A program made the translations under genes and the position numbers. Positions 41,488-45,491 of a stretch of DNA of 52,606 bases are shown here, piece after piece. Under the pieces are notes generated by a model. It saw only the letters and a list, made by a program, of their open reading frames with translations. It had not been told where the DNA came from and made no database searches. Source of the stretch: Clostridia bacterium (GTDB taxonomy: Bacteria; Bacillota; Clostridia; UBA1381; UBA9506); contig JAFQLU010000079.1 of NCBI GenBank assembly GCA_017396465.1, positions 1 to 52,606 of the forward strand. Reading direction: 5' to 3'. Every line of letters begins with the position of its first letter. The first letter of the stretch is position 1.

Positions 41488-41527
41488 AAAAAAATAGCGC
41501 TATTGTTGCAAATGCAACAACAGCGCT
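41488..41527 (-). terminator. Terminator of the nrdD-nrdG-dut operon, containing the Crp-type palindrome
   Basis: On the minus strand AGCGCTGTTGTTGCA pairs with TGCAACAATAGCGCT (15 bp, one G/T) around TT, followed by A and seven T. The stem includes GTTGCATTTGCAAC (41505-41518), the same 14-mer found upstream of nrdD. Confidence 0.88.
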
Positions 41528-41538
41528 TTCTTGTATTT

Positions 41539-41985
41539 TTATTTTGTTCCTGTGGAGCCGAAGCCACCTTCGCCTCTGACGGTATCTGTCAGGCTTTCTG
41601 TTTCGGTGTAATTTGCAAACACGTAAGGTGCAATGACCATCTGTGCAATACGCTCGCCATGTTCAATGGTTTGTGCTTCCTGCGAGTGATTATGAAGCGC
41701 CACCATGATTTCGCCGCGGTAGTCGCTGTCAATCACGCCTACGCAGTTTGCAGGTGCCAGGCCTCTTTTGGATGCCAGACCGCTTCTTGCGTATACCAGG
41801 CCAACCAAGCCTTCCGGAATTTCCATTGCGATTCCGGTGTGCATCAGAAGCGTTTTCCCCGGTTCAATGGTAACAGGCTCATCTAAAACAGCTCTTAAAT
41901 CTGCGCCTGCGGCAAACTGTGTGCCATAGGTGGGCGCAACTGCGCGGGAATCTAATTTTATGAATCGTACCGTTTTCTGCTCCAT
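41539..41985 (-). CDS. dut: dUTP diphosphatase (dUTPase)
   Basis: Dut (148 aa) hydrolyses dUTP to dUMP, keeping uracil out of DNA and feeding dTMP synthesis. The five motifs of trimeric dUTPases are intact: AGADLRA, ARSGLASKRGL, GVIDSDYRGEI, GERIAQMVI and the C-terminal RGEGGFGSTGTK. Its start overlaps the nrdG stop region (1-base gap), giving a nucleotide-supply operon with the ribonucleotide reductase. Confidence 0.96.
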   Translation of the reverse strand: MEQKTVRFIKLDSRAVAPTYGTQFAAGADLRAVLDEPVTIEPGKTLLMHTGIAMEIPEGLVGLVYARSGLASKRGLAPANCVGVIDSDYRGEIMVALHNHSQEAQTIEHGERIAQMVIAPYVFANYTETESLTDTVRGEGGFGSTGTK

Positions 41986-41986
41986 C

Positions 41987-42532
41987 TTATTTTTCCTTCC
42001 ACTTCTCGTAGTATTCCTCGGCAGGAATAATCTGTCCCCGCTTTAAGGTTTCCTTCAGGTCGATAATCCGCTGATTGGTACTGCCACGGAAGCGAAGATT
42101 CAAATCCTTTTGTTCTGCCACGAACTCGCCGTCAACCAAAATATCGATATAAGAAAGCATTTCGTCGGTAACCTCGCATCTTGCGCGGCTGTCTTTTAAA
42201 AGCTCTCTGTCTAACAGATATCCTGTGTAGCACCAGATGGTTTTTTCCGGATAGGTTTCCTTGATTTTTTTAAGAAGCGGCACCAAAGCCAGCTGGTTTA
42301 CCGGCTCAAAGGGTTCGCCGCCCAGCAGGGAAAAGCCCTTGATAAAGCTGGGGGAAAGCGCTTCTATAATCTTTTTTTCCTGCTCACAGGTAAAAGGCTC
42401 ACCGGCATTAAAGTCCCACGTTTCGGGGTTGAAGCACTCCTTACAGTGATGGGTGCATCCGCTGACATACAGCGACACTCTTACGCCGATTCCGTTTGCC
42501 ACATCGTGCGTTTTAATTGCGGAAAAGTTCAT
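41987..42532 (-). CDS. nrdG: Anaerobic ribonucleoside-triphosphate reductase activating protein
   Basis: NrdG (181 aa) is the radical SAM enzyme that puts the glycyl radical on NrdD. The cluster motif CTHHCKECFN (CxxxCxxC) is near residue 27-34, followed by the SAM-binding LLGGEPFEP. It lies 24 bases downstream of nrdD. ATG 42532 has only a weak ribosome site (GGAACG), which suggests lower expression than nrdD. Confidence 0.95.
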   Translation of the reverse strand: MNFSAIKTHDVANGIGVRVSLYVSGCTHHCKECFNPETWDFNAGEPFTCEQEKKIIEALSPSFIKGFSLLGGEPFEPVNQLALVPLLKKIKETYPEKTIWCYTGYLLDRELLKDSRARCEVTDEMLSYIDILVDGEFVAEQKDLNLRFRGSTNQRIIDLKETLKRGQIIPAEEYYEKWKEK

Positions 42533-42556: not shown

Positions 42557-44683
42557 TTACAGATGCAATACTCTTGCTTTGATTTCCTTGGTTTTGCCCA
42601 CATTCCAGAAGTTTTCGCCTAAGTAACCGCAGGTTCTTCTGGTTACGTTCATTTTTGCATGGTCTTTGTTATGACACTGGGGGCATTCCCACTCGTTTTC
42701 GTCATTGATTTCGATTTCGCCGTCGAAACCGCAAACATGGCAGTAGTCACTCTTGGTGTTGAATTCGGCATACTGGATATTGTCATAGATGAATCGGACA
42801 ACATCTTCAATTGCATCGGGATTGTGACGCATGTTGGGGATTTCAACATAGGAAATCGCACCACCGGAGGAAATCTTCTGGAACTGGCTTTCGAACTCGA
42901 ATTTTGTGAAAGCGTCGATGTCCTCACGAACGTCTACATGGTAGGAGTTGGTGTAGTAACCCTTATCGGTTACGTCTTCCACGCTACCGAATTTCAGCTT
43001 ATCAATTTTTGCGAATTTATAGCACAGAGATTCTGCAGGTGTACCGTAAAGCGCAAAACCGATACCGGTTTCTTTTCTCCATTTATCGGTAGCCGCACGC
43101 AGATGGTTCATAACTCTCAGTGCAAATTCCTGGCCCTCCGGCGTTGTGTGAGATACGCCACGCATTACCTTGGTCACCTCGTAAAGACCGATGTAACCCA
43201 AAGAAATGGAGGAATAACCGTCAAACAGATAGTCGTCAATCACTTCACCCTTATCCAGTCTTGCGATTGCGCCATACTGCCAATGCACGGGGCTGACATC
43301 AGACTTGGTACCTAACAGTGCACGGTGGCGGCACATGAGCGCTTCAAAGCACAGCTCCAGTCTTTCGTCGAACAGCTGCCAGAAGCGGTCTTCGTCGCCC
43401 TTTGCAGCAAGACCGATCTGGGGCAGGTTGAGGCTGACTACGCCCTGGTTGAAGCGGCCTTCGAATTTATAGTTTCCGTTTTCATCCTTCCAGGGAGACA
43501 AAAAGCTTCTGCAACCCATGGGACTGAATACGTTACCTTCATAGTTTTCACGCATTTTTTTAGCGGAAATATAGTCGGGATACATTCTCTTGATGGAGCA
43601 CTGAACTGCCAGCTTGGTGATATAGTCATATTCGCCGCCCTGCAGACTGTTATGCTCGTCTAAAACGTATACCAGCTTGGGGAATGCAGGTGTTACATAA
43701 ACGCCTGCTTCGTTTTTGATACCTTCTAAACGCTGACGGAGAATTTCTTCCACAATCATTGCGTTTTCTTTTAAGTATTCATCTTCTTTATCCAGATTTA
43801 AGAACAAGGTAACAAAGGGAGACTGACCGTTGGTGGTCATTAAGGTGTTAATCTGATACTGAATGGTCTGCACACCGGAGCGGAGCTCGTCTTTTGTGCG
43901 GCCCATAGCCAGTTTTTCCACCATTTCTTCCGATAATTCCTCACCGGCAACTTTGCGGATGCTCTCTTTGAATTTTTCGTTGCTCTTTCTTAAGTATTTG
44001 CCCAGATGACGGATGTCCACAGACTGTCCACCGTACTGGCTGCTGGCAACTGCCGCGATAATCTGGGTTACGATAGTGCAGGCAACCTGGAAGCTCTTGG
44101 GTGTTTCAATCAGCTTACCGTTCATAACGGTGCCGTTATCCAGCATATTTCCGATATCAATCAGACAGCAGTTGAAAATCGGCTGTACGAAATAGTCTGC
44201 ATCGTGGAAATGCAGAACGCCGTCTTCATGTGCCTTGGAGATTTTTTCGGGAAGCAGGATTCGCTTTGTTAAATCCTTGGAAACCTCACCGGCAATCAGG
44301 TCACGCTGTGTGGATGCCGCAACTGCGTTTTTGTTGGAGTTTTCTTCCATAACATCTTTATTGGAGTTTTTAATCAGGCTCAGGATAGACTCGTCCGTTG
44401 TGTTCGCTTTTCTTACCAAAGCGCGGGAGTAACGGTAAATAATATAGGTCTTACCCAGCTCGAAATGATTCATCTGCATCAGCTTCTGCTCGATGATATC
44501 CTGAATATCCTCAACAAGCATACGCTTGCATTTTTTCGCTTCAATAAAGGCCAGAATAGACTCGATTTCTTCGTCGGTTGCACGCTCCTGCTCTTCCACC
44601 TCAGCATTTGCCTTGCGGATTGCCACTTCAATCTTCGCTCTGTCGAAATCGACGGTTCTTCCGTCCCTTTTTATTACCAACAT
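42557..44683 (-). CDS. nrdD: Anaerobic (class III) ribonucleoside-triphosphate reductase
   Basis: NrdD (708 aa) reduces ribonucleotides to deoxyribonucleotides without oxygen. It has an N-terminal ATP-cone (VIKRDGRTVDFDRAKIE, ~1-90), the glycyl-radical enzyme barrel, a zinc site of two CxxC pairs (CHVCGFDG and CPQCHNK), and the radical glycine in RRTCGYLGENFW near the C-terminus. ATG 44683 follows GAGGAGTG. Oxygen sensitivity of this enzyme fits an anaerobe. A sigma-A promoter and a Crp/Fnr-type palindrome lie directly upstream, shared with a divergent Crp-family gene. Confidence 0.97.
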   Translation of the reverse strand: MLVIKRDGRTVDFDRAKIEVAIRKANAEVEEQERATDEEIESILAFIEAKKCKRMLVEDIQDIIEQKLMQMNHFELGKTYIIYRYSRALVRKANTTDESILSLIKNSNKDVMEENSNKNAVAASTQRDLIAGEVSKDLTKRILLPEKISKAHEDGVLHFHDADYFVQPIFNCCLIDIGNMLDNGTVMNGKLIETPKSFQVACTIVTQIIAAVASSQYGGQSVDIRHLGKYLRKSNEKFKESIRKVAGEELSEEMVEKLAMGRTKDELRSGVQTIQYQINTLMTTNGQSPFVTLFLNLDKEDEYLKENAMIVEEILRQRLEGIKNEAGVYVTPAFPKLVYVLDEHNSLQGGEYDYITKLAVQCSIKRMYPDYISAKKMRENYEGNVFSPMGCRSFLSPWKDENGNYKFEGRFNQGVVSLNLPQIGLAAKGDEDRFWQLFDERLELCFEALMCRHRALLGTKSDVSPVHWQYGAIARLDKGEVIDDYLFDGYSSISLGYIGLYEVTKVMRGVSHTTPEGQEFALRVMNHLRAATDKWRKETGIGFALYGTPAESLCYKFAKIDKLKFGSVEDVTDKGYYTNSYHVDVREDIDAFTKFEFESQFQKISSGGAISYVEIPNMRHNPDAIEDVVRFIYDNIQYAEFNTKSDYCHVCGFDGEIEINDENEWECPQCHNKDHAKMNVTRRTCGYLGENFWNVGKTKEIKARVLHL

Positions 44684-44741
44684 TTTACATTACACTCCTC
44701 TTTTTTTCTATCGTTGTTACATTGTGTCGAAAGTATTTACC

Positions 44742-44770
44742 ATTATACAATAAAAAAATTGAAAAAACAA
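44742..44770 (-). promoter_or_regulatory. Promoter of the nrdD operon
   Basis: On the minus strand, TTGTTT (44770-44765) and TATAAT (44747-44742) have a 17-base spacer. The predicted start is about 44735. The -35 box directly abuts the 14-bp palindrome. Confidence 0.8.
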
Positions 44771-44784
44771 GTTGCATTTGCAAC
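44771..44784. promoter_or_regulatory. Palindromic operator, probably for the Crp/Fnr-family regulator
   Basis: GTTGCATTTGCAAC is a perfect inverted repeat (GTTGCA, TT, TGCAAC). Its centre is about -42 from the predicted nrdD start, where Crp/Fnr class II activators bind, and it covers the -35 (TTGCAT, 44772-44777) of the divergent regulator promoter, a position for self-repression. Binding by the neighbouring protein is inferred. Confidence 0.65.
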
Positions 44785-44800
44785 ACTTTTGTGGTATAAT
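44772..44800 (+). promoter_or_regulatory. Promoter of the Crp/Fnr-family gene
   Basis: TTGCAT (44772-44777) and TATAAT (44795-44800) have a 17-base spacer, with TGG before the -10 (extended -10). The predicted start is about 44807. Confidence 0.75.
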
Positions 44801-44855
44801 ACAAAATGTAGGTGCAAAGTGAATATATGCACACTATATACAGGAGGCTATGAAT

Positions 44856-45491
44856 ATGCTCAAAACGGCTATGTTTCGCGGTTTGTCGGCATCTGATGTC
44901 CAGAAAATCGCGAACTGCCTTAGTATAAAAAAAGAAAAATTTAACACAAATGAAACAATAATGTCATATAACGGAAACAGTACCAGAATTGGCATTGTGG
45001 TATCAGGTTCGGCGGACCTTGTGTCCGACAGTTACGACGGAAGCCGCACCATTTTGGAGCGGTATTACGAGAACACCTTATTCGGCGAGCTGTTTGCACC
45101 GTACACCGGTGCCGATGACCCCGTGGTGATTGCATCCTCCCCTTGTGAGGTGCTTATGTTCCAGTCGAAGAACCTGATGTCACCCTGCAAGCACGCCTGT
45201 GATTTCCATGACATTTTCCTGACTAATATCATCCATCTGCTTATGCAGAAAACGCGGCTTCAGTCCCAGCGCATTGAGGTGCTGAGCTGTCGCTCTCTTC
45301 GCGCAAAGCTGATGCGATTCTTCGAGCTTCAGGCAAAGGATGCAGGTTCTAACAGTTTCATTCTCCCCTTTTCTCTGTATGCCCTGGCAGACTATCTCTG
45401 CATAGACCGCTGTGCCATGCAGCGCGAAATGAAAAAAATGCGGGAGGACGGGCTGATTGCCTCCAAGGACAAAAAAATCGAGCTGCTTTAG
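44856..45491 (+). CDS. Crp/Fnr family transcriptional regulator
   Basis: A 211-residue regulator: cyclic-nucleotide-binding-type beta-barrel (~15-110, with GIVVSGSADLVS and LFGELFAPY), a dimerisation helix, and a C-terminal winged helix (YALADYLCIDRCAMQREMKK). It lacks the N-terminal cysteine cluster of FNR and the cAMP-binding Arg/Ser set of CRP. Cysteines in SPCEV and SPCKHACDFH could bind metal or sense redox or oxygen, but this is unproven. ATG 44856 is 8 bases after AGGAGG; ATG 44850 is too close. It is divergent from nrdD with a shared palindrome, so nrdD is its likely target. Confidence 0.9.
   Translation: MLKTAMFRGLSASDVQKIANCLSIKKEKFNTNETIMSYNGNSTRIGIVVSGSADLVSDSYDGSRTILERYYENTLFGELFAPYTGADDPVVIASSPCEVLMFQSKNLMSPCKHACDFHDIFLTNIIHLLMQKTRLQSQRIEVLSCRSLRAKLMRFFELQAKDAGSNSFILPFSLYALADYLCIDRCAMQREMKKMREDGLIASKDKKIELL

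Follow-up and report, generated by a model that had tools for sequence, protein, structure and literature searches.

NrdR is usually regarded as the controller of ribonucleotide reductase (RNR) genes in nearly all bacteria, and FNR as a controller of nrdD. At the class II promoters of CRP and FNR, the operator is centred near -41.5 and the -35 element is missing. HcpR of P. gingivalis senses NO by means of heme and Met68. NrdR acts as a general RNR repressor and controls nrdDG in Firmicutes (PMC12051234, PMC4009431). According to work cited in PMC4009431, FNR activates nrdDG in E. coli. In the literature that we searched, which did not extend to subscription papers or RegPrecise, we found no description of an nrdD-crp switch of the kind reported below and none that links HcpR to the control of nrdD.

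The window analysed here is the whole 52,606 nt stretch of DNA from a Clostridia bacterium. Within it, a 166 bp intergenic gap separates nrdD from a divergently oriented gene for a Crp/Fnr-family regulator (hereafter crp). The gap holds GTTGCATTTGCAAC at positions 44771-44784, a perfect 6+2+6 palindrome (GTTGCA-TT-TGCAAC, no strand assigned) that is common to the two divergent promoters. The nrdD gene (42557-44683, minus strand) encodes a class III (anaerobic) RNR with an ATP cone and a glycine radical domain. On the same strand lie nrdG (41987-42532), whose product is the radical-SAM activase of NrdD, and dut (41539-41985), which encodes a dUTP diphosphatase. These are the middle and final genes of an apparent nrdD-nrdG-dut operon, which has a strong intrinsic terminator hairpin at 41496-41527 (minus strand). 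The regulator gene (44850-45491, plus strand) encodes a protein of 213 amino acids with the recognition helix DRCAMQRE, in which Arg192 occupies the position of CRP Arg185, and with a set of residues formed by Cys23, Cys113, Cys117 and His120. No riboswitch or other Rfam RNA was found in the locus.

A sequence-only reading of the window had described this palindrome between the divergent genes as abutting the nrdD -35 region with its centre near -42, and as covering the -35 region of an extended -10 promoter of the regulator gene. Each of these features is present. On the nrdD side (minus strand), a TATAAT -10 element at 44742-44747 lies 23 nt from the palindrome and predicts a start near 44735. 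The weak -35-like TTGTTT (44765-44770, minus strand), which matches TTGACA at three of six positions, directly abuts the palindrome and is separated from the -10 element by a 17 bp spacer. On the crp side (plus strand), the -35-like TTGCAT (44772-44777) is contained within the palindrome and lies 17 bp from the extended -10 element TGGTATAAT (44792-44800). In this element TGG precedes a TATAAT (44795-44800) that is 10 nt from the palindrome, and the predicted start is near 44807. Relative to these starts, which are predicted on the basis of the -10 elements, the centre of the palindrome falls at about -42 on the nrdD side and at about -30 on the crp side.

Judged from the window alone, the palindrome is barely beyond chance. 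A perfect 6-2-6 repeat is expected in a gap of such size with P ~0.04, and the window contains 19 repeats of this type where ~13 are expected. Because these statistics are weak, the case for the palindrome rests on conservation. The same P value could be taken to favour a reading of the palindrome as a terminator or attenuator hairpin or as a repeat that arose by chance, and so could the two other perfect copies of the 14-mer in the genome, at 41505-41518 and C26:19448, both of which are terminator stems and were rejected as further operators. The palindrome in the gap, however, lies upstream of both predicted starts and shows no special RNA fold (z -0.2). In addition, the site and its spacing are kept across genera and orders, as described below, so that the hairpin or chance reading is largely refuted and in our view scarcely credible. 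The copy at 41505-41518, which is absent from the sequence-only reading, is the loop-proximal stem of the intrinsic terminator of the nrdD operon and not an operator. As a separate observation, a core TATTGTTGCAAATGCAACAA that contains the operator 14-mer exactly is common to two intrinsic terminators, that of the window (41496-41527) and one at L233 (1443-1474); this may be coincidence or a recurring terminator module.

Protein searches gave five nrdD-crp loci: that of the window, two from genomes of its genus, and two from another family of the order, in the last of which a contig end cuts the regulator gene. The 14-mer is letter-identical in all five, as is the crp-side gap of 10 nt. The nrdD-side gap is 23 nt in the window and 22 nt in the other four. 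When nrdD upstream regions in the order were taken without regard to their DNA, the palindrome was present in all four that have crp next to nrdD and in none of the 40 that do not (Fisher 7e-6); one further palindrome upstream of nrdD lies where a contig ends. The palindrome is a widely conserved site, and it is very probably the docking site of the adjacent regulator. A check proposed with the sequence-only reading was to look in related genomes for GTTGCA-N2-TGCAAC ahead of nrdD and crp-like genes. Its conservation there is borne out by this co-occurrence of site and genes with two-sided spacing kept, by half-sites that vary in step with the recognition helix, and by the repetition of the same polarity in another order.

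The polarity emerged from searches of a wider scope. The pattern ANNNTA-N22-GTTGCANNTGCAAC-N10-TANNNT, which uses no gene information, was run on 84,980 genomes and gave at least 121 matches in at least 120 stretches, counts that are to be read as a sample. Among the 121 matches listed, 62 flank nrdD, where ~0.01 would be expected by a rough estimate, and 86 flank a crp homologue. Other crp-side partners among the matches listed are hcp, an frdX-like ferredoxin, a flavodiiron protein and a NuoE-like hydrogenase subunit, together with a DUF438-like protein and an NrdG-like activase. Apart from nrdD and crp, the partners were named from their sequences and not from family scans. Several loci have features of their own. 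At L076 and L141 (Megasphaera) the two-promoter pattern lies upstream of a flavodoxin-like gene with no crp gene adjacent. The hcp-crp locus L128, labelled Aeriscardovia (Actinomycetota), nests among Lachnospiraceae and is probably a mis-binned contig. In both genomes of genus g15 (L013, L199), the crp -10 element is closely followed by a second inverted repeat, ATATTGTGTTACAATAT.

Since this pattern imposes the spacing, gaps were measured separately in an open-spacing search (GTTGCANNTGCAAC-N4..34-TATAAT) of 391 genomes of the class. Among the 60 gaps obtained, those of 22 nt (19 cases), 10 nt (12) and 21 nt (7) stand out, and a reversed-pattern control gave no matches in the same 391 genomes. 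Where spacing is likewise left open in the order of L067, sites with gaps of 10 or 16 nt face crp in 18 of 18 cases, and sites with gaps of 22 to 24 nt face nrdD in 13 of 15, the rest including pyruvate formate-lyase and an NrdG-like activase. Throughout this order, the enzyme gene takes the activator position and the regulator gene takes the promoter-covering position. Sites of the form GTTGCANNTGCAAC were also seen upstream of pyruvate formate-lyase-like genes at L239, L253, L265, L150 and L153 (reduced-genome Bacilli-like MAGs), with a 22 nt activator gap at L265, and may represent a glycyl-radical-enzyme regulon.

The link between the site and the regulator was examined in 21 relatives that were picked by protein and whose site could be recognised. 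Five of them carry Arg at the CRP-185 position, and all five have the half-site GTTGCA. This half-site is found in none of the other 16, which carry Ala, Asn, Ser, Thr, Val or Lys there; theirs are GTTGAA, GTTGTT, GTTGTA or GTTGGA, in a few cases with a single mismatch. In a further two relatives of the Arg type (L010, L018), no site could be recognised. Among loci selected by GTTGCA, Arg is found in nearly all with a readable helix. Shared ancestry accounts for part of the Arg/GTTGCA pairing. The base after GTTG tracks the residue equivalent to CRP Arg185, which ties the nrdD-adjacent regulator to its palindrome.

The same genome provides a second case. A paralogue (L022, G000:C111:19166-19795), encoded divergently from a ferredoxin gene, has the helix RSGLSAEI with Ala at the CRP-185 position, and its site is GTTGAAATTTCAAC (half-site GTTGAA). 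Its existence makes it conceivable that another Crp/Fnr protein, such as this one, uses the palindrome of the window while the nrdD-adjacent gene merely shares the promoter region. We consider this very unlikely, given that the paralogue carries Ala and not Arg at the specificity position and has a site of its own, and given that GTTGCA accompanies no regulator of the non-Arg type in the protein-selected set. Two helix/half-site pairs in one genome are what would be expected of two proteins that each recognise a palindrome of their own, and the two regulons with their separate half-sites appear to be insulated. A readable protein-DNA code of this kind (Arg at CRP-185 with GTTGCA) would allow two paralogues within the same cell to retain distinct targets.

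The regulator belongs to the Crp/Fnr superfamily, with matches to PF00027 (cNMP-binding fold, 1.3e-7) and PF13545 (Crp-type helix-turn-helix, 1.1e-6). Its structure model (pLDDT 91) matches NtcA, Clr and CRP, and its relatives with solved structures are Lmo0753 (7T8O) and HcpR of P. gingivalis (9DAY). A search of the genome collection with the window regulator alone gave no matches. Assignment to FNR was rejected, as Cys23 is the only cysteine in the first 90 residues, there is no N-terminal cysteine cluster, and the site differs from TTGAT-N4-ATCAA, a point that the sequence-only reading had made correctly. Assignment to NrdR was rejected because the protein is of the Crp/Fnr type and lacks the architecture of a Zn ribbon plus ATP cone. 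The operator is of the GTTG-N6-CAAC kind that is common with hcp/frdX relatives. The gene context, by comparison, is not that of HcpR: the window regulator stands beside nrdD rather than hcp or frdX, and it is the paralogue on C111 that lies beside a ferredoxin gene. A tree of 121 relatives places the hcp/frdX-adjacent proteins in a single group (99/95) that does not include the window protein. The nrdD-adjacent proteins fall mainly into two groups outside that clade, and the window protein groups with such proteins at 93/64 only. The position equivalent to CRP 181 is Ser in most relatives and Cys in the window protein; variant motifs have been noted for this position in HcpR2 of C. difficile and C. 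thermocellum (PMC1274295). By its operator kind and partner genes the regulator appears to be HcpR-like, but it lies outside the hcp/ferredoxin clade and we do not file it as HcpR. Its site is a member of a wider HcpR-like operator family, GTTG-N6-CAAC, whose partners include hcp, ferredoxin, flavodiiron protein and pyruvate formate-lyase.

The arrangement of the promoters is informative with regard to the direction of control. The -35 regions on the nrdD side score 2.84 of 6 in the family, hardly better than the 2.64 in shuffled spacers, and in crp promoters TTGCA from the palindrome is always placed at 17 bp. With starts predicted, the operator near -41.5 and the weak or absent -35 are those of a class II promoter. 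The weak nrdD -35, the gap held at 22-23 nt and the TTGCA within crp promoters together fit a model in which nrdD is activated in the class II manner and the crp promoter is occluded. We assign a probability of about 0.73 to the reading in which the palindrome is the operator of the HcpR-like regulator, one dimer activates nrdD and lowers its own synthesis, and an oxidant or NO signal acts via a metal cofactor. Specifically, a dimer on the palindrome would sit at about -41.5 to -42.5 of the nrdD-nrdG-dut promoter, where a good -35 is missing, and would recruit RNA polymerase to nrdD in the manner of a class II activator. In this position it would also cover the crp -35 and reduce its own synthesis. 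Binding is a prediction, and both effects are predicted from the geometry. The two-promoter switch put forward in the sequence-only reading is supported. The nrdD gap of 23 nt in the window, where 22 nt is usual, counts against the activator reading, but four other nrdD promoters, in the order of L067, have a 23 nt gap.

A protein at the position of the palindrome could instead repress nrdD. The regulator would then repress both promoters from one site, blocking the nrdD and crp -35 regions until a signal such as cluster loss releases it. The site does touch both -35 regions, and strong conservation would be expected in this case too. A repressor site need not keep its spacing, however, whereas the nrdD gap is held at 22-23 nt; furthermore, nrdD lacks a -35 as activator-dependent promoters do, and the placement of the site differs throughout between the enzyme side and the regulator side. 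For these reasons we regard repression of both promoters as unlikely, and favour activation of nrdD with autorepression of crp.

The putative signal was approached through the regulator itself. Of 121 proteins, 84 have all of Cys23, Cys113, Cys117 and His120, and 25 have none of them. The four residues also vary jointly on independent branches: Cys23 changes with Cys113 in 9.5 of 11 pairs, and none change in the opposite direction. Cys99 does not follow the four-residue set; the window protein has all four residues and Cys99 as well. The gain and loss of these residues as a unit suggests a metal sensor, with the Cys/Cys/Cys/His set as candidate metal or Fe-S ligands. NO or oxidants are suggested by the partner genes (hcp, flavodiiron protein, ferredoxin, glycyl-radical enzymes). 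Taken with the coordinated gain and loss, these genes suggest that the activator would probably respond to oxidant or NO damage and would sense it by means of a metal cofactor on the four residues. In an obligate anaerobe, such a signal is more likely than FNR-like anaerobic induction. The outcome would be more NrdD when the oxygen-labile glycyl-radical enzyme is being lost.

NrdR was detected in 37 of 41 relatives. It was not found in any of the three genomes of the window's genus (55-85% complete), and is missing in one of 17 across the rest of the family. Among 34 genomes with the nrdD switch, one of which has its NrdG-type variant, 18 lack NrdR, compared with none of 16 in which the regulator has other partners. 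In the order of L067 and G469 (small Bacilli-like genomes), where the nrdD-crp switch is common, no NrdR was found over the cut-off in 117 genomes. Many of the losses fall in lineages that are NrdR-less throughout, so cause and effect are inseparable, and loss of NrdR as a consequence of the switch was rejected. It is possible that the switch replaced NrdR in some lineages; most Ruminococcus-like genomes keep both. Class I or II RNR was not detected in 38 of 39 nrdD-crp genomes. This was rejected as a special feature of these genomes because 43 of 44 order relatives without the switch match them, which makes it a lineage trait. More tentatively, and with rather more doubt than confidence, we suggest that in several anaerobic Firmicutes lineages control of the sole RNR passed from NrdR to a Crp/Fnr regulator whose Cys3-His set is an unrecognised site for a metal, possibly Fe-S, and that in some cases this regulator controls pyruvate formate-lyase too. 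Oxidant or NO damage would in this way be coupled to the supply of DNA precursors and to other glycyl-radical enzymes.

The nrdD-crp switch would be a compact alternative to control by NrdR or FNR, one that recurs in anaerobic gut and rumen Firmicutes, including an NrdR-less order, and that brings a candidate metal sensor site. Compared with NrdR, which uses paired boxes, the regulator here is an unrelated protein. The arrangement resembles FNR and nrdDG of E. coli in that a Crp/Fnr-family protein acts, or is predicted to act, on a class III RNR operon. It differs in having no FNR box and no N-terminal cysteine cluster, in the adjacent regulator gene and shared operator, and in its occurrence in apparently obligate anaerobes with NrdD as the only RNR detected. 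Like class II CRP promoters, the nrdD promoter has an operator near -41.5 and no good -35; its half-site is TGTTG and not TGTGA, and one site serves two divergent promoters. HcpR and HcpR2 (PMC1274295, PMC12915319, PMC12750200) share with the window regulator the Crp/Fnr family, the GTTG-N6-CAAC operator and the same two-promoter arrangement, which we found beside hcp and frdX-like ferredoxin genes. In contrast to these proteins, the window regulator is partnered with nrdD rather than hcp, and the nrdD-adjacent proteins lie outside the well-supported hcp/frdX clade.
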